A DNA stretch of 64,000 bases, taken from assembly GCA_947625495.1 (NCBI GenBank), contig CANQOQ010000010.1:1-64000 (forward strand), given 5' to 3'. The translations under genes were made by a program, and so were the position numbers. This document shows, piece by piece, positions 2,584 through 27,867 of this stretch (position 1 is its first letter; each line of letters starts with the position of its first letter). This DNA is from Candidatus Gastranaerophilales bacterium (lineage in GTDB: Bacteria; Cyanobacteriota; Vampirovibrionia; Gastranaerophilales; Gastranaerophilaceae). The notes under the pieces are model-generated. The model was given only the letters and a program-made list of their open reading frames with translations, had not been told where the DNA came from and did not search any database.

Positions 2584-2826
2584 TCAATCTCCGATTTTAG
2601 AATGGAACGTTCTTGAGATAACGTCATCCTGCTGTTCTTTTGTTAATTTATTAAAATTAACAGCGTAGCCTGAAACTCTGACAGTCAGCTGCGGATATTT
2701 TTCGGGGTGGTTTTGTGCGTCAATCAATGTTTCACGGTTAAAAACATTTACGTTTAAATGGTGTCCGCCCTTTTCAACGTAACCGTCTATAAGATTAATT
2801 AAGTTTTCTTCCTGCATTGTTGTCAT
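2584..2826 (-). CDS. Detached glycyl-radical domain of pyruvate formate-lyase
   Basis: An 80-residue protein equal to the C-terminal end of pyruvate formate-lyase: [14 protein letters not shown] at its start and the radical loop RVSGYAV with the radical Gly near residue 53, followed by [14 protein letters not shown]. In E. coli PFL this segment is fused to the catalytic barrel (radical Gly734). Here it is a separate gene 11 bases after the pflB stop, with its own ribosome site (AGGAG, 8 bases before ATG at 2826; an upstream in-frame TTG is less likely). It resembles the spare-part protein YfiD/GrcA, but in this locus it is probably the obligate radical subunit because the adjacent PflB lacks the domain. 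Confidence 0.9.
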
Positions 2827-2837
2827 AATCAAATCTC

Positions 2838-4919
2838 CTAATAATTATTATTCTCACAGCATCCGCAATCTAAATTAACCATTAAATCGCCCATAAATAC
2901 TTCATTTTTACCTAATGCATCAGGGATAATCGAGAAAGTATTTGAAATACCGTCTTGTGCATCATGGAAGGGAAGTTTTGCAACGGATGACAGTGAAGCT
3001 AAAGCTCCATTCGTATCACGGCCGTGCATTGGGTTAGCACCCGGTGCAAGCGGTACTCCTTCTTTTCTTCCGTCAGGTGTGTTACCTGTCTTTTTGCCGT
3101 ATACAACATTTGATGTTATCGTTAATATTGACATTGTAGGTATTGAGTTTCTGTATGTATAGTGTTTTCTTATTTTTCCCATAAATGATTTAACTATATT
3201 TACGGCTATTTCATCGACTCTGTCATCATTGTTTCCGTATTTAGGGAACTCTCCTTCTGTTTCATAGTCAATAACTATGCCGTTTTCATCACGTATTGTT
3301 TTAACTTTCGCATATTTAATTGCGGAAAGTGAGTCTGCCACAACGGATAAACCTGCAATACCCGTTGCAAAATATCTTTTAACATCTCTGTCCATTAAAG
3401 CCATTTGGGCTTTTTCGTAGCAGTATTTATCGTGCATATAATGAATTACATTTAAAGTATTTACATACAGCCCTGCAAGCCACTCCATCATCGCATCATA
3501 CTTTTCCATTACTTCATTATAGTCAAGATACTCTGATGTAACAGGCTGATATTTAGGCCCTACCTGAACTTTCAATCTTTCATCAACACCGCCGTTAATT
3601 GCATATAACAAGCATTTTGCAAGGTTTGCTCTTGCACCGAAAAATTGCATTTCTTTACCCACAACCATAGATGAAACGCAGCAGGCAATTGCATAATCAT
3701 CACCATGAACGGCTCTCATTAAGTCGTCGTTTTCATATTGAATTGATGAGGTGGTTATGGAAATTTTTGCGCAGTATTCTTTAAAGTTATGCGGCAAGTT
3801 CTTTGACCATAATACCGTTAAGTTTGGCTCGGGGGATGTACCCAGATTTTCAAGTGTATGAAGGTATCTGAAGGAATTCTTTGTAACCAAGGGTCTTCCG
3901 TCAACACCCATACCTGCAATGGATTCAGTTACCCATGTGGGGTCGCCTGAAAAGAGTTCGTTATATTCAGGCGTTCTTGCAAATTTTACCAATCTCAATT
4001 TCATTATAAATTGGTCAATTAGTTCTTGCGCCTGTTCTTCTGTTATAATACCGTTTTTCAAATCCCTTTCAATAAATATATCCAAGAAAGTAGATGTTCT
4101 TCCGATACTCATAGCAGCACCGTTTTGCTCTTTTACGGCAGACAGATAGCCGAAATATAACCATTGAACAGCCTCTTTTGCGCTTTGAGCAGGTTTTGAT
4201 ATATCAAAACCGTAAATTTGCCCCAGCTCTTTCATTTCTTCAAGAGCTCTTATCTGGTCTGTAATTTCTTCTCTTAATTGGATTCTATCGGGAGTCATTT
4301 CTCCTTCAAGTGATTTAAATTGATTTTGTTTATCTTCAATTAACCTGTCGATACCATATAGTGCTACCCTTCTGTAGTCGCCTATAATTCTGCCTCTGCC
4401 GTATGCATCAGGAAGCCCCGTTATTATGGCTGAATGCCTTGCAGCTTTCATCTCGGGTGTATAAACATCAAATACGCCTTGGTTATGAGTTTTTCTGTAT
4501 TTGGTAAAGATTTCCGAAATTTCTCTATCCACCATATAACCATAAGATTTACAGGCTGTTTCTGCCATTCTTATTCCGCCAAATGGCTGCAGTGACCTTT
4601 TTAACGGTTTATCCGTTTGAAGTCCTACTATAACTTCCAAGTCTTTATTTATATAACCTGCGCCGTGAGAGGTTATGGTTGATACAATATGTGTATCCAT
4701 ATCAAGAACGCCGTTATTTTCTCTCTCCTGCTTAAATAAATCACAGCACTCCTGCCACAAATCCATAGTAGCCTGAGTCGGATTAGTTAAAAAACTTGCG
4801 TCTCCGTCATAAGGCGTATAGTTATTCTGTATAAAATCCCTTACATTAATTTCACTTTGCCATTTACCTGATTTAAAATCTTCATAAAAAGAAGATTTTT
4901 CAATCTCCGTATTTAACAT
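2838..4919 (-). CDS. pflB: Pyruvate formate-lyase catalytic core lacking the glycyl-radical domain
   Basis: Formate C-acetyltransferase core (about 693 residues), converting pyruvate and CoA to acetyl-CoA and formate. It aligns by eye with E. coli PflB along almost its whole length, including the catalytic cysteine pair in ACCVSSM (near residue 414), the [24 protein letters not shown] and GANPMHGRD motifs. It stops after [14 protein letters not shown], just where E. coli continues into the radical domain, so the radical Gly is absent and must come from the adjacent 80-residue gene. The start is taken at 4919 because a GGAG lies six bases before that ATG; an in-frame ATG at 4931 overlaps that ribosome site. 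Confidence 0.92.
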
Positions 4920-5010
4920 TTGTATCTCCATATCCCAAAATTTTGTTTAAAAATTATATCATAAATGCATTGTCATGATTATATTTTTAATTCAAATGTA
5001 AATTTTTATT

Positions 5011-5919
5011 TTATTTTTTTAACATATAATAATAAACAGCCTTAATAAAGCCCGGTCTGAATATAAACAAAGGTCGATGTCTGAAATAATTAATATAACT
5101 TTTTAAATTTGATTTTTTTTGCCATTTTTTATCAGGTGTTTCCCAATCGGTTAAAGCTGAATATTTAAAATAATATTCTTTAAACGGAGTATATGCTCCA
5201 TATTTCCATGGTTTTTGCGGTCCTGTGTAGTGCAGTATGTTAAATTTTAATGAATAATTTGAGCGTGAAGTATAATTTGAAACTTGGACATTCCATCTGC
5301 TGTCCAATTTTAATATTTTACCGTCAAATGCTTTATTTAATATATCCTGATCACCCAATATAAATACATTTTGATTGTCCTTAGCGCAGTTAATAAATAT
5401 TTCTTCAGCATTCTCCTGACGCCATTTTTTTAAATTTATTAATAATACTCCGGAATTTACATAAAACTTTTGTTTCAGTTGATTTCTCTTGTGATATCTT
5501 TTGCTGCCTATATCTGCTATTGCGCCCATAAAATATTGCTCAACATTAGTATTGTATAATTCTTTCAGACTTGTATTTACTATTATATCAGGGTCTAAGT
5601 ATATTATTTTGTCTTCATTTATATAACTAGCAAGTTTAAGTCTGTAAAATGACGTAAGAGGAAGATACCCCGTTGTTTTTATTTTCTTAAATTCGCTAAA
5701 TTCATCTTCTTTAGGTTTAATATATACAATGCTAAAATCTTTTATCCGCTTTAAATTGTTTATTTTTTCTTTATTTTCTTCAGTAATATCAGAGCTGATA
5801 ATATAAAAAGTCAGTTTGTCGTCAATATTGGCATTGGATAAAACTGATGCAACGGCACTGCCGGTATATTTGGCATAATTATTGTCAACTGTAAAACATA
5901 TTTTAATTTCGCTCATCAT
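5011..5919 (-). CDS. Glycosyltransferase family 8 (LPS galactosyl/glucosyltransferase-like)
   Basis: A 302-residue retaining sugar transferase of family GT8, using nucleotide sugars to extend a surface glycan. Seen: N-terminal ICFTVDNNY, the metal-binding YLDPDIIV at about residue 103 (usual form YLDxD), VNSGVLLINLKKWR near 155, DQDILN near 194, and the HYTGPQKPW motif near 235 typical of the family. The C-terminus is basic and hydrophobic. It lies 42 bases downstream of the second radical SAM gene in the same orientation and may belong to the same operon, so its product could act on the same surface structure or modified peptide; that link is inference. Confidence 0.88.
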   Translation of the reverse strand: MMSEIKICFTVDNNYAKYTGSAVASVLSNANIDDKLTFYIISSDITEENKEKINNLKRIKDFSIVYIKPKEDEFSEFKKIKTTGYLPLTSFYRLKLASYINEDKIIYLDPDIIVNTSLKELYNTNVEQYFMGAIADIGSKRYHKRNQLKQKFYVNSGVLLINLKKWRQENAEEIFINCAKDNQNVFILGDQDILNKAFDGKILKLDSRWNVQVSNYTSRSNYSLKFNILHYTGPQKPWKYGAYTPFKEYYFKYSALTDWETPDKKWQKKSNLKSYINYFRHRPLFIFRPGFIKAVYYYMLKK

Positions 5920-5961
5920 ACAACCTTTTTATAATTATATTATAAAATAGTTATTTAAATG

Positions 5962-7236
5962 TTAATCTTTTATATTTTGCAACTTTTGTAATTTTAGATA
6001 AGCATTCTTGTACGCCTTTGCATCTTCACAGAGAATTTTTGATTTTCCGAGAAATTTATTATCATTTGTCGGATATAGTGAACAATATTCACAATATTTG
6101 CAGTAATCATACTTAAAACATTGTTTAAGATTTGATTTTATGTATTTTTCTCTAAATTTTGGTAAAATATTGGTCTGTAATTCCTTTAAGGATGTTGTAT
6201 TATAATTGCCCAGAATATAGTTAAATCCTACACATGGAGTTATATCTAAATCAGGTTTGATACTTAAAGTTGAACTTCCCGCACCGCAAATTTTTCCGTC
6301 TGTTTTTTCAAAGTTTCTAATCTCAGCATTTTCAAAAATATAATAGTAAAACTTTTCTATATCTTTATAATTGCATTTTGTACTTAAGTTTTTATTATTT
6401 TTATTGTAAATAAAACGGCAGCCGGAGCTAAATTCCGCACCTGTTTCATCTGCATATAGTTCAACATATTTATGGCTATCTGTATTATATAAAATCTGAG
6501 GACAGGCGATACAGACACTAATATTTTTTTCTCGTAAACGCTTAATTATATTTAGTGTTTTATAATGAGAGCCTTTAACTCCGGTAATATTATCATGTAT
6601 ATCAGAATCCATTGAATATAATGATATTTTAAAAAACGAAGGATAAATATTTAAAAGTTCATTAAATAAATTTTCATCATCATAAAGTTTTTGAGCGTTT
6701 GTCAGAATTGATAATGACATGTGTTTTTTTCGTACATATTTTGCAATTTTTAAAAAATCTTTATTTATTGTGCATTCTCCGCCCGTAAGAGTTATTCCGA
6801 ATACATCAATTTTGTGCGCTTCATCTATTATTTTTTTTGCTTGTTCAAAACTTATTTTATATTCATTCATATCTTTAGGATTAAAGCAGTGTTTACATTT
6901 TAAATTGCATCTATAGTTTAATTCTAAATGCAAAGAACCGATAATATTATTCTCAAAAAATAACCGTGAGAGCTTTTTATTAACATATTTATGGATTTCG
7001 CCATCGGCTTTAATTACAATCTTTTCAGAATTATTATTTGACTTTCTTATTAAATTAAAAAGAAAACTTTTTATATCTGTAGTTTTATAACGGCAAACTG
7101 ATGTTATATTCAGCCAATCATCAGATAATTTACCTTTTAACACATAAAAAACATGATTTTTTAAATCTTCAATTAAACTTATATTATAACTTTTACATTT
7201 AAAATTTCTTGTATTTATATAGTTGGGGATTCGCAT
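5962..7236 (-). CDS. RRE-like/radical SAM/SPASM peptide maturase, copy 1
   Basis: About 424 residues. N-terminal 100 residues (starting MRIPNYINT) look like a PqqD-type RiPP recognition element, with a FYVLKGKLSDDWLNI helix-turn region. A radical SAM core follows: LNYRCNLKCKHCF gives CxxxCxxC near residues 109-116, and TLTGGECTI is the SAM-binding GGE motif. The C-terminal 120 residues hold SPASM-type cysteines (CGAG, TPC, QCF..YCKYCEYC, ILCEDA), ligands for extra Fe-S clusters in peptide-modifying enzymes. Start is placed at 7236, seven bases after the stop of the small peptide gene, because this matches the start of copy 2 (MIIPAYINT); a longer frame from 7317 would overlap the peptide gene. 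Substrate presumably that peptide. Confidence 0.85.
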   Translation of the reverse strand: MRIPNYINTRNFKCKSYNISLIEDLKNHVFYVLKGKLSDDWLNITSVCRYKTTDIKSFLFNLIRKSNNNSEKIVIKADGEIHKYVNKKLSRLFFENNIIGSLHLELNYRCNLKCKHCFNPKDMNEYKISFEQAKKIIDEAHKIDVFGITLTGGECTINKDFLKIAKYVRKKHMSLSILTNAQKLYDDENLFNELLNIYPSFFKISLYSMDSDIHDNITGVKGSHYKTLNIIKRLREKNISVCIACPQILYNTDSHKYVELYADETGAEFSSGCRFIYNKNNKNLSTKCNYKDIEKFYYYIFENAEIRNFEKTDGKICGAGSSTLSIKPDLDITPCVGFNYILGNYNTTSLKELQTNILPKFREKYIKSNLKQCFKYDYCKYCEYCSLYPTNDNKFLGKSKILCEDAKAYKNAYLKLQKLQNIKD

Positions 7237-7243
7237 ATAAATA

Positions 7244-7402
7244 CTATTTACTTTCACATATCGACATACTTGCTCCTTTGGGAACCAGATTCCAATTTGC
7301 TGAAATTCTGGGATCATCTATACCTTCAACTATATCAGAGAAGAATTCATTGATTTCATCCAAGTCTTCTGCATATAAATCTTCATCATCATTTTTTTCC
7401 AT
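7244..7402 (-). CDS. 52-residue candidate RiPP precursor peptide 1
   Basis: A short frame starting at ATG 7402 whose A is shared with the TAA of the ATP-grasp gene (TAATG), with AGGAG seven bases upstream. The product is 52 residues: a very acidic leader containing DEINEFFSDIVEGIDDP (residues 15-31), then IS and an 18-residue basic/polar tail ANWNLVPKGASMSICESK with a single Cys. The second peptide in the operon has the same length and shares DEINExFSDIxExxDP but has an unrelated tail. This conserved-leader/variable-core design next to an RRE-radical SAM-SPASM gene is what is expected of a RiPP precursor. No Gly-Gly cleavage site, protease or exporter is seen nearby. Function is inferred only from context. 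Confidence 0.75.
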   Translation of the reverse strand: MEKNDDEDLYAEDLDEINEFFSDIVEGIDDPRISANWNLVPKGASMSICESK

Positions 7403-8397
7403 TATTTATCTCCTTTTAAATTTAACATTTCCCCGAGTTTTAACTGCAGTTCGTTATTATTTTTACCAAACTCTATAAAACCCGAATATGGAGTAAATGT
7501 CATTTCTCCAAAATACAATTTATTTTTATGTATCATCCAGTCAACTCTTACAAATTTAAAATCTTTTGCAAGCATTTCACTCAATTCTTTTGCTGTTTTT
7601 AATATTTCATCGGCTTCTTCATATATAACTTTATTTGTCGAATAAAAGCTAATATCACAATTGTTAAAATTTTCATCAAAACAACTGATATTTCTATGAG
7701 AAAATTTTTTATTAACAAAAATACTTCTGCATTTTTGTATAAATTTTACATTGCCGTTAAAACACCATATCTCAATTTCTGCATTTGATATATTTAAATC
7801 TTCTCTTAAAAGAGATTCTATAATTATTTGAGGTTTAATATTTTTATACTGAGTTTCAAAATCACTCCAACCAAAAAAGGATTCATTCATCCAATTGTTT
7901 ATATGGAATTTTATTGAATTAAATAGATACGAATTATCTAAAAATTTTTGTTTATCTTTAACTGTAAAGTTCCACTTGCAGCCGTGGTTACATTTAATAA
8001 TAAAACTATCCGGAAGTTTATCAAAATCAATTTCATCAAAATTATTACATATTTGAAGTACGGGCTTTAGATATTCTTCTCCGATTTTTTCTTTTATCCA
8101 ATCTCGTACGAGAACTTTATCTGTAAGAGTTGTTTTTATGGGAAGGTTATCATATATTTTTAACCACTGTATCTTTTCATTCAGGGTTTTTGGATGCTTA
8201 AGATTTAGTTTTTGCATTGTTCGAATTTTGTATGCAAAAACCAAGTATTTAGCATAATCATTTTCATCAAGACTCATTTTGAAGTTATAATCAAAAGGAT
8301 TTATTCTTTTGAGCCCGATATTACAGTTTAAAAATCCCCCCCCCGTGGAGGTTTTGCGCTTTATAAAATCTGTAATTGTATTTAAAAAGCTGTTCAT
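7402..8397 (-). CDS. TupA-like ATP-grasp protein, copy 1 (G9, in frame)
   Basis: A 331-residue protein matching the TupA-like ATP-grasp family (teichuronopeptide/surface glycan genes; family knowledge). Conserved blocks: TLNEKIQWLKIYDN (about residue 76), LTDKVLVRDWIKEKIG, SFIIKCNHGCKW near 134 and the C-terminal FKFVRVDWMIHKNKLYFGEMTFTPYSGF that carries acidic ATP/metal ligands. It presumably joins an amino acid or peptide to an acceptor. Nine G (plus coordinates 8336-8344) encode Gly19-Gly21; nine keeps the frame open. ATG overlaps the stop of the preceding radical SAM gene (ATGA) and its own stop overlaps the peptide start, so translation of the whole operon looks coupled. Confidence 0.8.
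   Translation of the reverse strand: MNSFLNTITDFIKRKTSTGGGFLNCNIGLKRINPFDYNFKMSLDENDYAKYLVFAYKIRTMQKLNLKHPKTLNEKIQWLKIYDNLPIKTTLTDKVLVRDWIKEKIGEEYLKPVLQICNNFDEIDFDKLPDSFIIKCNHGCKWNFTVKDKQKFLDNSYLFNSIKFHINNWMNESFFGWSDFETQYKNIKPQIIIESLLREDLNISNAEIEIWCFNGNVKFIQKCRSIFVNKKFSHRNISCFDENFNNCDISFYSTNKVIYEEADEILKTAKELSEMLAKDFKFVRVDWMIHKNKLYFGEMTFTPYSGFIEFGKNNNELQLKLGEMLNLKGDK
8336..8344. repeat. G9/C9 homopolymer near the start of ATP-grasp copy 1
   Basis: Nine C on the plus strand, G on the coding strand, about 55 bases after the start codon. At this length the frame continues into the conserved ATP-grasp domain (ON). The flanks are nearly identical to those of the 10-base tract in copy 2, so the two loci are a natural ON/OFF comparison. 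Confidence 0.9.
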
Positions 8398-9749
8398 GAG
8401 TTAATTATATATCCTAATGTTTTATTTTGCAACTGTTTTAATTTTAGATAAGCATTCTTGTACGCCTTTGCATCTTCACAGAGAATTCGGGATTTTTTCA
8501 TAAAAGTGTATAAAGTATGCTGGGGACAATAATCACAAAAATCACAATAATCAAATTTAAAGCATTCCTTTAAATTACTTCTGATAAATGTTTTTATGAA
8601 TTTTGGGTATATTTCTTCTTTAAATTGTTTTAATGAGATATTTTTATAATTGCCTAATTTATAATAAAAATTATGACACGGGAATATATCCAATTTAGGA
8701 GATATAGAAATCTTATCCAAACCTGCAGTACAAATAATTTGATTGTCTTTATAAAATCTTGGTCTTATGTTATTTATATCAATATTGTTTATATAATAAT
8801 TTTCCAAATCTTTTCCGTTTAATCTTGCTGATTTATTGTTATTATCAGGATTATATATAAATTTATTATCAATTATATAATTAATACCATTACTTTTTGC
8901 AAATTTTTCTACATCAATATATTCGTTTTTGTTGTATGCTAGTATTTGGTGCATAATAGATACATTAATCTTTTTTTCCTTAAGCTTTTTGATTACTTCC
9001 AAACTTTTTAAATGTGAACCTTTGACACCTGTAATATAATCATGAATTTGAGGATTCATACTGTATAAACTTATATCAATGCTTGACGGATAAATTTTTA
9101 TTAGTTCATTAAAAAATTCAATATCATCATAAAGCTTAATGCCGTTAGTTTTTATATATAAAGACATGTGCTTTTCTCTAATGTATCTTGATATTTTTAG
9201 AAAATCTGGGTTTATTGTGCATTCTCCACCTCCTATTAATATACAATACACTCCTATTTCACAGGCTTCGTCAATAATTTTTTTTGCCTGATTATATGAT
9301 ATTTGGTATTCATTCATATTTTTAGGGGTAAAACAATGCTTGCATTTTAAATTACATCCGTAATTTAAATCTAATGACAAAATATAAATCAATTTGTAAT
9401 TATGGAAAAATTTATTTATATAAGTTTTAAAATAATTAAAATTTTTATTGTTTTTATTTATAACTTTTAAATAATTGGTCTTTAAAGAGGGAAATTCTTT
9501 CTTTGTATTTATCAAATTATTGATTTTTAATTCATAAAATAATCCGTAAAGTTCTTTTTCAAGTTTGTTTTCAATAGCAAAATTTAAAATATATTCATAA
9601 CTTTTATTGTTAACAATAAAAGTCCATAAAACACTTGATATGCCTTTTAAAACAAAATTATTACCGTTTTTAATATTCTCAATAATGCTTATATATAATG
9701 AATTTTTAAGATTGTAGGTTTGAGTATTAATATAAGCAGGTATAATCAT
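8394..9749 (-). CDS. RRE-like/radical SAM/SPASM peptide maturase, copy 2
   Basis: About 451 residues, paralogue of 5962-7236. It begins MIIPAYINT with a PqqD-like N-terminal domain (FVLKGISSVLWTFI, followed by a helical segment to about residue 90). The radical SAM motif is LNYGCNLKCKHCF near residues 131-138 and the GGE motif is LIGGGECTI. The C-terminal SPASM-like region has CTAG, FPCHNF, ECFKFDYCDFCDYC and ILCEDA cysteines. Start at 9749 overlaps the stop of peptide 2 as ATGA; a longer frame to 9794 would run through the peptide gene. The last 16 codons are duplicated upstream of ATP-grasp copy 2. Its likely substrate is the 52-residue peptide immediately upstream. Confidence 0.85.
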   Translation of the reverse strand: MIIPAYINTQTYNLKNSLYISIIENIKNGNNFVLKGISSVLWTFIVNNKSYEYILNFAIENKLEKELYGLFYELKINNLINTKKEFPSLKTNYLKVINKNNKNFNYFKTYINKFFHNYKLIYILSLDLNYGCNLKCKHCFTPKNMNEYQISYNQAKKIIDEACEIGVYCILIGGGECTINPDFLKISRYIREKHMSLYIKTNGIKLYDDIEFFNELIKIYPSSIDISLYSMNPQIHDYITGVKGSHLKSLEVIKKLKEKKINVSIMHQILAYNKNEYIDVEKFAKSNGINYIIDNKFIYNPDNNNKSARLNGKDLENYYINNIDINNIRPRFYKDNQIICTAGLDKISISPKLDIFPCHNFYYKLGNYKNISLKQFKEEIYPKFIKTFIRSNLKECFKFDYCDFCDYCPQHTLYTFMKKSRILCEDAKAYKNAYLKLKQLQNKTLGYIINS

Positions 9750-9904
9750 AATCTTGCACCGCATTCGGTGTATGATGAAAACGTACAATAACATTTAGAT
9801 ATTAGCATAGGATCTACTACTTCAATAATATCTGAAAATAATTCGTTAATTTCATCCGATGTCATGTCATCCAAATTTTTTGCATTTTCTTCATTATCTA
9901 ACAT
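9746..9904 (-). CDS. 52-residue candidate RiPP precursor peptide 2
   Basis: A short frame from ATG 9904, one base after the ATP-grasp copy 2 stop, with AGGAG six bases upstream, ending in a TGA that overlaps the radical SAM start. The leader is acidic and contains DEINELFSDIIEVVDP (residues 17-32), nearly the same as in peptide 1. After IS the 16-residue tail KCYCTFSSYTECGARL carries three Cys, two Ser, three Thr/Tyr and is otherwise unlike peptide 1. Equal length, equal gene position and a conserved leader with a changed tail argue strongly that both are substrates of the neighbouring maturases. No homologue is recognised from memory, and the modification type cannot be read from sequence. 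Confidence 0.75.
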   Translation of the reverse strand: MLDNEENAKNLDDMTSDEINELFSDIIEVVDPMLISKCYCTFSSYTECGARL

Positions 9905-9905
9905 A

Positions 9906-10899
9906 TTAATCTCCTTTCAAATTTAATAGGTTACCTAATTCTTTATTCCAATATCCATTTTCTCTTGAAAAATCTATAAATCCGGATTGCGGAGTAAATG
10001 TCATTTCACCGAAATATAGGTTATTATTATATTGTATGAAATCAACACGTACGAATTTAAAACCTTTTGCTAATTTTTTGCTTAAATCGAATGCTTTCCT
10101 ATAGTTGTTATTTATTTCTCTGTTTATAAGTTGTTCTCTATAATTAAATCTTAAATTTATGGAATTATAATTTTCATCGAATGATGATACAAGTTTATAA
10201 TTATGCTCTGAATCAAATTTGTGAATGTTGATTATTTTAGGTTTAGAGTTGAAACAATATATATCAATTTCTTCCGGTTCTTGATTATTTTTTTCTCTTA
10301 AAAGAGATTCTATAATTATTTGAGGTTTAATATTCTTATACTGAGTTTCAAAATCACTAAAACCAAAAAAAGTTTGTGTCATCCAATATTTAAACTCGTT
10401 TTTTGTAAGTTTAATTAAATTCTTATTTTCTAAAAACTTAGTTTTATTTTTTATAATAGTATGCCACTTGCAACCGTGGTTACATTTAATAATAAAACTA
10501 TCCGGAAGTTTATCAAAATCAATTTCATCAAAATTATTACATATTTGAAGTACGGGCTTTAAATATTCTTCTCCGATTTTTTCTTTTACCCAATCTCGTA
10601 CTAGAACTTTATCCGTAAGAGTTGTTTTTATGGGAAGATTATCATATAACTTAAGCCACTGTATTTTTTCATTAAGTGTTTTAGGATGCCAGAGATTTAG
10701 TTTTTGACCTGTTTTTATGTAATAAGCCTGACAAAGATATTTTTTGTAATCCTTTTCTTTTAGACTCATCATAAAATCGTAATTAAAAACAGATGTATTT
10801 CTTAATCTGGGAATATAATAATTAGAGTTTAAAAATCCCCCCCCCCGTGGAGGTTTTGCGCTTTATAAAATCTGTAATTGTATTCAAAAAGCTGTTCAT
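9906..10899 (-). CDS. TupA-like ATP-grasp protein, copy 2 (G10, out of frame: phase OFF)
   Basis: Paralogue of 7402-8397. The ATG at 10899 and the next 18 codons match copy 1, but the G tract has ten bases instead of nine, so translation leaves frame and ends at a TAA at 10822-10824 after 25 codons. The remaining frame, open from 10772 (two ATGs) to 9906, encodes an intact ATP-grasp domain of 288 residues (LNEKIQWLKLYDN, SFIIKCNHGCKWH, FVRVDFIQYNNNLYFGEMTF). With nine or twelve G the protein would be about 330 residues. Either the gene is switched off by slippage or a shorter form starts at 10772. Because peptide 2 follows after one base, the switch may also affect its translation. Confidence 0.8.
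10837..10846. repeat. G10/C10 homopolymer in ATP-grasp copy 2
   Basis: Ten C on the plus strand (G on the coding strand), in the same place as the nine-base tract of copy 1. The extra base shifts the frame into a stop 13 to 15 bases further on. This is direct sequence evidence for the OFF configuration in the sequenced genome, barring a base-count error in the homopolymer. Confidence 0.85.
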
Positions 10900-10948
10900 G
10901 AGTTAATTGTATATCCTAATGTTTTATTTTGCAACTGTTTTAATTTTT
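10900..10948 (-). repeat. Remnant of a radical SAM gene 3' end (duplication boundary)
   Basis: About 49 bases that repeat 8398-8447 almost exactly. Read on the minus strand they encode KLKQLQNKTLGYTINS and a TGA overlapping the ATG of ATP-grasp copy 2, the same tail that ends radical SAM copy 2. No radical SAM gene precedes it; the HD-domain gene ends at its edge. This is the scar of a tandem duplication (unit about 2.5 kb) or of loss of a further cassette. Confidence 0.8.
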
Positions 10949-13900
10949 AAATCAGTATAATAGGATAGTTGTTTTCATAAGCAAATTTTAAGAAATCATC
11001 GGGCAATTCATTTATTGTATCTGCAATTGCTATTAATCCTTGTATTTTTGGGGTATATCCTATGATTTCGTTATGTGTATGTTCTTCTTTATCAATTAAA
11101 CTTTCTTGATATTCTTTTATTGCGTTTATCAGTTCCGTTCCGCTAAACCCGTATCGTCCTATTTTATATTCTTTATTTGGATTAATTTGATTTAAACTTG
11201 TTTTTGAAGCTATTGTATTTTTATAAAATTCACTAAAATCATCTTCTTTAATTTCTGTTTCATCTATTCCAAGATTATATAATAATGTTTTTTTAAAATT
11301 TAATCTGGATTTCGTATTTGTATATATTAATTTTAAAACATTTTCAATCCCTTTTTGTATACCGGAGGACTGGTTTGTTTTTTCTTCATTGATTATGTTT
11401 GTGTTTATTTGGGAGAGTAAAAAACCGTATTTTCTGCGGGCGTAGGTCCTTTTATATTGAGGAGTAATGATTGATTCTGACAAAACTCCTCCATTATATG
11501 GTGATGTTAGTAATTTAGTTGTTTTTAATGAATTATATAATCTCGAATTATCGACCATGTGGACAAGAAAGACCGCATTCTCTTTTGTTAATCCGTTTGC
11601 GAATCCGTATTTACCCAAATCTTCATTTGTGTCAATATTATGAAAATCTATAACCGTATATTCTTTCCCGTCTTTTATTGTTTTATTGTTATCCGATACT
11701 TTATCTGATATAAAATAGTCGGTAAATATTGCATTTCCCGTTGAATATAAGTATTTTAAATTATTTTCAACAGCTTCAAGATTTGGTTCATCAAGCTTAT
11801 GTTTGTGCATATTATAAAAATTGTCACTTACTGCCTCTAAATCACTTTTTGCAAGTATCTTTGCAATTTCAAAATCATTTGGACGTCTAAATCTGAATGC
11901 CAATTCTTTTGAAATTTTATCTTTATCTGTTGTATTTGAATATTCTTCTAGCCAATGATGATTTTGTATTATTTCATATAATCTGTCTCTTTGTTCGGGA
12001 TTTTTAAATAATTTTTTTATTATACTTCTTGAATACAAAGAAGATTGATTTTGGTGTCCTTTGTCAATTTTGTTTTCTTTTTTCGATATATCATGTAATA
12101 TTGCTGCAATTTTTATAAGAACTTTGTCGGTCTCATTCAGTTTTGTTATATAATCAGGATTATTTATCGTATTTGCCAATACTAATAATGAGTGTACATC
12201 TAACGTATAATTGTGTGTTGCGTGCTGTTTCTTTCCTATTATGTTTATAAATTCGGGAAAGGCTTTTATTATATAATTTAGTTGTTTATTTAAATCTTTG
12301 TTTTCTGTTTGTACTTCGTTCTCACAAATAAACCTATGCATAATATCGTATATTTGCTTCTCTGTTGAATTATTTTTATTAAGCTCATTTAATTTTATTA
12401 TTCCGTTATATCCCGTTATTATTGTTTCATTATCTTTTTCTTCTGTTATAAGACTTATTCCTGTTTTATTTTCAATTATTTCTTTTGTTTCTTTATCGGT
12501 GCATATAAAGCTTAAATCGTTTAAAAATTCTTTTCTCGAATATACTAAATTTATACCGTTTGACATGTTTTTTAATAAGGGTATTGATTCCGTTATTGTT
12601 TTTTCAAACTCTGTCAGAGAATTATTTTTTGTTTTTAAAACATTTTTAATAAAATTTTTTTTTGTATTTTCATCTATATTAATCGAAATATCTTCAAAAT
12701 TAAGACCTGAATCAATATCCGTAATTGTTTGTTCTAAAAACTCAAATCCTTTGATATTATTATTTTGTATATATGTATTCGCTGCTTTTAATGTTTCTAT
12801 CAAATTGATTTTGTCTCTAAAATTAATATCGGATAATTTTAAATTTTGATTTATTATATCAATATACTGCTTACCGCTTAGCTCGGGAATATATGTATTA
12901 TTTGGAATATTATTAATTATCTGCATAAATTTTAAAGTCTTACTAAAAAGTTCTCTGTCTGTTGAATTATTTTCTGATTGGCATAAATCATAGATTTCGC
13001 AGAATAAATCTATATCTCCTATACAGTCAGCGTATGTAATTATATCGGTTTTTATTCTCTCCGAAAGATTGTTATCTTTTTGTTTATATTTATTATATAT
13101 TTCTTCAAGTTTTATTAAACAATTACTTTTTTGTGTTTTATTTGCTAATTCATATATGAAATTTTTTGTATCGGGTGATTTCATACACATATTATAAAAT
13201 GATTCATTTGTTTCAATATTATCAAATTTTGAATATAATTTTTTAATCAAACTGATGTTCTCTTTTATGGGGTTTCCTTGCGGAGTAAATGCAAAATTAA
13301 CATTGTTTATAAAGTTTTTTAAATTAGGGTCTCCTTTCAGTTCATAGAAAGTCCTAAAAATCATTGATCTTGTTTCTTTTGGAAAATTATTTAATTTGTC
13401 ATAAATTTCTTCTGTTAAACTGTATGATTTTGTTTTTCTTTGTATTCTTTCTGCAAGTTTAAATTTATCAACAGGTACAATACCTGTGTCATCTTTTAAT
13501 GTATTAAACAACAAAGCTAATGAATTAATACTGTAATCATAATCGGTATTTTCTGTTTTTAATAATCTTTTTAACAATATTAAATTCTGTTTATCAAAGC
13601 TGCCGTCTTCTTTTTTTATGCTGTTAATAAGTTCAGATAAGAAATATTCGGGATATGTTGTCTTGAAAAATAGCAGATTCATTGCTTTCTTATTATGTCT
13701 GGCTTTAAAATCCATGATTTTCCCTTTAAATGAATCTTCTTCCAAAGGCAGAAAAAAGTTTAAGAAATCATCGGCAATAGGACTGTATTCACCTGTTTGC
13801 ATATCAATACAAGCTTTTACAATATCTCCTGACAATGAAGGATACATCCCCTTTTTATCAAGTTCTTCTTTCTTTTCTTTTATTTTTTCATCATATAAAT

Positions 13901-27858: not shown

Positions 27859-27867
27859 GGGGGGGGG
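27859..27867. repeat. G9 homopolymer, intergenic
   Basis: Nine G 15 bases after the symporter stop, in a GC-richer stretch (27855-27940) that holds no convincing gene. Unlike the other three tracts it is not in a coding frame I trust. Confidence 0.7.

Follow-up and report, generated by a model that had tools for sequence, protein, structure and literature searches.

A probable genus-restricted class of phase-varied RiPP cassettes with TupA-type ATP-grasp ligases in a Candidatus Gastranaerophilales genome

A 64,000-nucleotide stretch of a Candidatus Gastranaerophilales genome (assembly of 1.88 Mb in 51 contigs), called the window below, carries at 5962-10899 on the minus strand two tandem cassettes, each reading TupA-like ATP-grasp, small peptide and radical SAM protein. 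We propose, with a probability of roughly 0.72, that such cassettes form an undescribed, genus-restricted class of ribosomally synthesised and post-translationally modified peptides (RiPPs), built on a TupA-type ligase, joined in one subclade by a radical SAM/SPASM partner, and phase-varied. A sequence-only reading of the same DNA had recognised a RiPP-type operon present twice, and this much stands: all six genes were found on the minus strand, touching or overlapping along the block (a 1-base gap, ATGA, ATGA, TAATG and a 7-base gap), and they combine a RiPP recognition element (RRE), a radical SAM protein resembling RiPP maturases and a leader-bearing peptide tied to the ATP-grasp. It had overlooked the runs of G, the broken reading frame in cassette 2, the absence of the block from a syntenic relative and the expansion of the cassettes across the genus. 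A chance arrangement is excluded because the gene order and the leader recur in many loci of related genomes. In the open-access literature searched, we found no description of a TupA-based RiPP or of slippage control of a RiPP maturase, and nothing on Gastranaerophilales RiPPs or on phase-variable RiPPs that describes this cassette system. The features of the block are:

10906..10934, minus strand: putative promoter TTGCAA-N17-TACAAT, leaderless-type, 6 nt 5' of ATG 10899
10903..10947, minus strand: remnant of the 3' end of a third radical SAM gene, within the 119-nt repeat D3 (96% to 8327-8445)
9906..10899, minus strand: TupA-like ATP-grasp of cassette 2, out of frame as assembled (25 aa from ATG 10899; 330-aa frame if the tract were G9)
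10837..10846, minus strand: G10 tract (C10 on the plus strand), 53 nt past the ATG, predicted OFF
9746..9904, minus strand: precursor peptide 2, leader MLDNEENAKNLDDMTSDEINELFSDIIEVVDPMLIS, core KCYCTFSSYTECGARL, boundary proposed
8394..9749, minus strand: RRE-radical SAM-SPASM protein 2, proposed start ATG 9749, open reading frame (ORF) opening at 9794
8404..8432, minus strand: putative promoter TTGCAA-N17-TATAAT, 6 nt 5' of ATG 8397
7402..8397, minus strand: TupA-like ATP-grasp of cassette 1, 331 aa, in frame (ON)
8336..8344, minus strand: G9 tract of cassette 1, 53 nt past the ATG, ON
7244..7402, minus strand: precursor peptide 1, leader MEKNDDEDLYAEDLDEINEFFSDIVEGIDDPRIS, core ANWNLVPKGASMSICESK, boundary proposed
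5962..7236, minus strand: radical SAM-SPASM protein 1 with shortened RRE, proposed start ATG 7236, ORF opening at 7317
5917..10955, no strand assigned: inserted two-cassette block, missing from the syntenic locus L333
5011..5919, minus strand: GT8 glycosyltransferase, a resident neighbour outside the system

The peptides of both cassettes are acidic and 52 residues long. The close relatives are Candidatus Gastranaerophilales metagenome-assembled genomes (MAGs) from animal guts, and about 110 stretches drawn from related genomes served for the cassette analysis. A leader-type peptide starts at most 200 nt after 73 of the 91 ATP-grasp genes with a complete 3' end and accompanies 34 of 41 ATP-grasps at loci chosen by the ATP-grasp alone, and leader matches away from an ATP-grasp number just 14 in 947 kb (both strands), several of them at contig ends. 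The leader holds a conserved acidic helix-like stretch (..LSxDEINELFSDIIE..), and an [ILVF][AS] motif stands at the leader/core boundary in 73 of 93 peptides. When peptides with similar leaders are paired, the leaders share a median identity of 0.75 and the cores one of 0.22 (shuffled cores, 0.13; 95th percentile, 0.23), and DNA identity is 0.82 and 0.49, respectively. Cys makes up 10.4% of core residues versus 0.04% of leader residues, is present in 90 of the 93 cores and is the only invariant residue outside the leader in the peptide alignment, which is loose in that region. Cores linked to the radical SAM protein are short (median 18.5 residues and 1.5 Cys), and the other cores have medians of 55 residues and 6 Cys. 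The cassettes therefore display the short precursor, conserved leader, variable core and adjoining modifying enzyme by which RiPPs are recognised at the gene level. A diversity-generating retroelement was rejected as the source of the variable cores: no RVT_1 match was found in G000 or in G199, G213 and G218, which hold many cassettes, and a reverse transcriptase is lacking in G000 and most cassette-rich genomes. At loci L280-L305 (genomes G142 and G199) the peptides have 75-165 residues and are rich in Cys and Tyr.

The ATP-grasp, rather than the radical SAM protein, is the constant partner of the peptide, because a radical SAM protein of that family is missing from the neighbourhood of about two thirds of the cassettes. 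All 59 peptide-linked ATP-grasps fall in one clade of 66 rows in the tree (100/99), within which those linked to the radical SAM protein form a subclade of 24 rows (100/99); the family's remaining TupA proteins are placed apart (31 rows, 100/98), and no leader-type peptide was found at 30 loci of other PF14305 proteins of the family. The two ATP-grasps of the window score 106 and 129 bits against PF14305 (Pfam cut-off 25); NCBIfam gave no match for one of them, P0003, and a sequence search found no solved relatives. The modelled ATP-grasp (predicted local distance difference test score, pLDDT, of 89) matches D-Ala-D-Ala ligase (Ddl) with Z 13.6 over 218 residues, and the graspetide ligases PsnB and AMdnB are among its Foldseek fold matches, PsnB in the top rows. 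Because K135, R284, D286 and E298 are invariant (27 of 27 sequences), we infer that the protein is an active ligase. The sequence-only reading had taken it for a second modifying or ligating enzyme; its tie to the peptide holds. That reading did not recognise the gene combination as a named RiPP class; ATP-grasp and SPASM proteins as such are paired in known loci, those of graspetide branch 5 in Bacteroides (PMC8939145), although with another ATP-grasp family.

These Bacteroides loci bring up the possible, if doubtful, alternative that the ATP-grasp is a graspetide-like macrocyclase which cyclises the core internally through ester or amide bonds. They resemble the present cassettes in their ATP-grasp ligase, SPASM protein and hypervariable Cys precursors, and the fold that the ATP-grasp shares with PsnB and AMdnB points the same way. 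However, the ligase here belongs to PF14305 only, a different Pfam family that is unmentioned in PMC8939145, and the P0003 result adds no NCBIfam link; the leader is without the motifs given there, there is one ATP-grasp per precursor, the tracts are putatively phase-variable, and the cores lack a common Thr/Ser/Lys plus Asp/Glu pattern that could supply conserved ester or amide donors and acceptors.

It is rather unlikely that the ATP-grasp instead attaches the peptide to a surface glycan at one of its carboxyl or amino groups, which would give a variable, switchable, peptide-decorated surface in place of a free peptide. The TupA-like domain of Campylobacter jejuni Cj1438 (Cj1438C), which shares the Pfam family and the ATP-grasp fold, forms amides on capsular glucuronic acid (PMC11800379), switching by G/C tracts is common among surface traits (PMC8355987), and the window has a G9/C9 tract within a polysaccharide pyruvyl transferase gene. 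Against this, the peptide-linked ATP-grasps form a clade separate from other TupA proteins and have a leader peptide as partner, and the cassettes travel without polysaccharide genes: they lie at scattered sites next to unrelated genes, not in the polysaccharide clusters that are typical of TupA polysaccharide ligases. GT8 is resident at a cassette-less site (see below).

The radical SAM proteins of the two cassettes score 74 and 78 bits for Radical_SAM in Pfam, and SPASM is matched in one copy only (23.8 bits). The cysteines of the CxxxCxxC motif (C137, C141 and C144) and seven C-terminal cysteines are invariant in alignments of 12 and 24 sequences. A PqqD-type RRE, as claimed in the sequence-only reading, stands out in the AlphaFold prediction for the second protein, P0004 (beta-beta-beta-alpha-alpha-alpha, residues 22-91, pLDDT above 90; whole model 89), but it is shortened in the first and the Pfam signal for PqqD in relatives is weak (E about 0.06, two relatives). 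The closest solved proteins are SkfB and CteB by sequence and CteB, SuiB and SkfB by fold; the SuiB match has Z 25.0 over 352 residues and the SkfB match Z 24.2 over 289, the alignments beginning at residues 15 and 22 of P0004. The protein thus aligns with RiPP maturases rather than with a non-peptide family, and in the subclade it does sit with a peptide; those radical SAM proteins that lack a DEINE-type leader nearby are mostly relatives having other small Cys peptides. No NCBIfam equivalog cut-off was reached (74 bits vs 850 for AlbA, 80 vs 400 for GeoRSP), and no family came near its cut-off among the matches listed, StsB, SkfB and PqqE kinds included in the test. The cassettes are like the loci of SuiB and of the sactipeptide and ranthipeptide maturases (SkfB, CteB, AlbA) in the order RRE, radical SAM, SPASM and in the small Cys precursor alongside, but they differ in having a TupA ATP-grasp as constant partner, a new leader family and no dedicated exporter or protease. 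What these matches establish is a common fold and not the chemistry. CteB and SkfB, the nearest relatives, make thioethers and the cores keep Cys, so a thioether is the likeliest product, with which the 90 Cys-containing cores are compatible and nothing more; this stays inferential since SuiB makes a carbon-carbon bond. A viperin-type defence function was rejected, as the generic radical SAM part alone matches. Where cassettes have no RRE-radical SAM protein, other radical SAM proteins come next and may be alternative partners: a 334-aa protein (L229, L234, L236, L237), a 353-aa protein with SPASM (L241) and a B12-binding protein of 480 aa (L246).

The system is concentrated in a single genus. 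The precursor profile matched 15 of 383 genomes of the order and, among 52 genera, the window's genus alone; at a loose threshold the precursor family is found in 27 of the 41 genomes of that genus, and the ATP-grasp profile matches in 34 of the 41. Orthologues of the radical SAM protein (E below 1e-40) occur in 19 of the 383 genomes, 17 of them in the genus. The expansion reaches at least 63 ATP-grasp matches, fragments included, in each of G142 and G199 (genomes of 2.3-2.5 Mb).

The data further suggest that the ATP-grasp genes are switched by slippage. Read from ATG 10899, the ATP-grasp of cassette 2 loses its frame at G10 after 25 residues; the sole ways of reading through are a tract of G9 or G12 (330/331 aa) and a start at an internal ATG, 10772. 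The window holds four runs of 9 or 10 G/C, and matches of eight G number nine versus 0.17 expected in shuffled sequence. Across the related loci, G/C runs of at least 8 occur in 20 of 78 ATP-grasp genes at 0.71 per kb in the zone that runs from 300 nt upstream of the ATP-grasp domain start to 60 nt downstream of it, versus 0.021 per kb in the rest of the same sequences, a 34-fold enrichment. Tracts are carried by 15 of 24 ATP-grasps linked to the radical SAM protein versus 5 of 54 others, begin 53-65 nt (mostly 53) past the ATG in clear cases, and by reading frame are OFF in 14, ON in 5 and undecided in 1 (approximate counts). In the OFF copies with a clear start (window, L042, L207, L198 and L200) one change of tract length restores the full frame; many out-of-frame copies are open over the rest of the gene. 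In L040, from relative G185, runs of C11 and C9 fall precisely on the leader/core junction of two precursors, both of which are truncated as assembled; C10 would give the cores IDARVAMDTMYTISATPGLGCGGPK and YEGRIAMDSVNVPGLLTGGTNVVSCGGGK. The tracts are prone to slippage, positioned so that a length change shifts the frame, and commoner there than chance would allow, which is the mark of a phase-variable locus. The nearest likeness is the gonococcal nap island, where homopolymer ON/OFF switching of a bacteriocin-like peptide gene has been proposed (PMC11798529); those peptides are not presented as RiPPs partnered by an ATP-grasp or radical SAM protein. Decay offers an improbable alternative: homopolymers of 9-11 are error-prone, so that the frameshifted ATP-grasps might be assembly errors, or else decaying pseudogenes, of which L044, whose ATP-grasp is truncated and whose leader contains a stop, is plainly an instance. 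This would leave unexplained that tracts are enriched at one place independently of their exact length, at an equal distance from a shared promoter-like start, and that a single length change suffices for repair. As to the remaining tracts, of the G9 runs at 2345-2353 and 27859-27867 one lies in frame inside the pyruvyl transferase gene mentioned above and one in seemingly non-coding DNA, and L224 (3608-4380) has three tandem precursors, two with C9 near their 5' ends, adjoined by a TupA-like and a GARS-like ATP-grasp.

Upstream of the tracts, a promoter-like motif (a TATAAT-like hexamer with a TTG-type -35) stands 6 nt 5' of the ATP-grasp start, and by an identical procedure it was found at 14 of 20 ATP-grasp starts linked to the radical SAM protein vs 9% of random windows. 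This points to a separate transcript of leaderless type for each cassette. In the mechanism that we propose for the RiPP cassettes, (i) each would have a TTGCAA-N17-TATAAT promoter to itself, from which transcription would begin at or close to the ATG of the ATP-grasp; (ii) the leader helix DEINELFSDIIE would be bound by both the RRE and the ATP-grasp; (iii) the ATP-grasp would convert a carboxylate to an acyl phosphate and then to an amide or ester on the precursor; (iv) the radical SAM/SPASM protein would cross-link the core, probably by a thioether at Cys; (v) the leader would be cleaved near the [ILV]-[AS] motif, the protease and exporter being encoded elsewhere; and (vi) replication slippage at the G tract would turn the ATP-grasp ON or OFF cell by cell, so that a population would yield a changing set of modified peptides. 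It is highly improbable that the small proteins act as subunits of the ATP-grasp, short-lived and with a regulatory or structural role: there is one peptide per ATP-grasp and its acidic N-terminal helix is conserved, but half of each peptide changes freely yet keeps its Cys while the other half is conserved.

Several points weigh against the RiPP interpretation. The cassettes, product, expression and cleavage included, are known here from genes alone, and the cores show no pattern of acceptor and donor residues that would reveal the role of the ATP-grasp; the RRE of the first radical SAM protein, P0001, is shortened. The loci were gathered by cassette similarity, so their frequencies do not stand for a random sample. 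The tract lengths come from MAG assemblies and were compared between paralogues and genomes, not within one population, so the ON/OFF states may include sequencing or assembly errors; the start codon is ambiguous for several tracts, and the internal ATG (MMSLxEKDY) might yield some ATP-grasp in OFF copies. If the RiPP interpretation is true, TupA ATP-grasp ligases, hitherto associated with surface polysaccharides, join the RiPP enzymes with one ligase per precursor, and RiPP maturation comes under slippage control, with the switch exactly between leader and core in one relative. The cassette expansion would suggest a major trait of an uncultured gut genus among the relatives of Cyanobacteriota, one missed by annotation pipelines because of the small size of the precursors and their mutually unrelated cores. 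It is tempting to speculate, though only tentatively, that the cassettes act like an antigenic-variation system, dozens of them being switched separately in a genome, each yielding a different modified peptide with Cys, and each cell showing or secreting its own random subset.

The two cassettes are an insertion of about 5 kb that is absent from a syntenic relative. At L333 (relative G212) the window's flanks, which hold GT8 and pyruvate formate lyase to one side and CoA transferase genes to the other, align at 92-95%; 5917-10955 is missing, and GT8 directly adjoins an HD-domain gene. At L334 (G049) GT8 adjoins CoA transferase. The GT8 gene, 94% identical and at an unchanged site in the cassette-less relative, is a resident neighbour because it keeps its place where cassettes are absent, which rules it out as a member of the operon. 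The suggestion in the sequence-only reading that the peptide might be sugar-linked, drawn in part from this gene, thus gets no support from it. Within the block, a repeat of 119 nt that spans a radical SAM gene end and an ATP-grasp gene start (8327-8445 vs 10829-10947, 96%) explains the third radical SAM remnant 5' of cassette 2, since repeat D3 is duplicated there, and is a sign of cassette duplication or recombination. A phage origin was rejected, the peptides and the ATP-grasp having no PHROG match. In the same flank, pyruvate formate lyase (2584-4931) is seemingly split within its glycyl radical domain, whose first half belongs to a 697-aa protein and whose second half to a separate 82-aa ORF, and the split is identical in L333 and L334.

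Related gene sets of other make-up were also seen. L039 (contig 14 of the window's own genome, about 34.1-36.5 kb) and L045 have a Cys-rich MNKLYIKK.. peptide without acidic leader, followed by a radical SAM/SPASM protein and a TupA-like ATP-grasp of another clade, after which comes, in L045, a B12-radical SAM protein similar to RiPP C-methyltransferases. L043, L046, L047, L048 and L055, from other genera and one Clostridiales MAG, pair a peptide MLKISRIARHT..CGCP..CGILYR with a radical SAM/SPASM protein, joined in L046 and L055 by a family-less protein of 300 aa.

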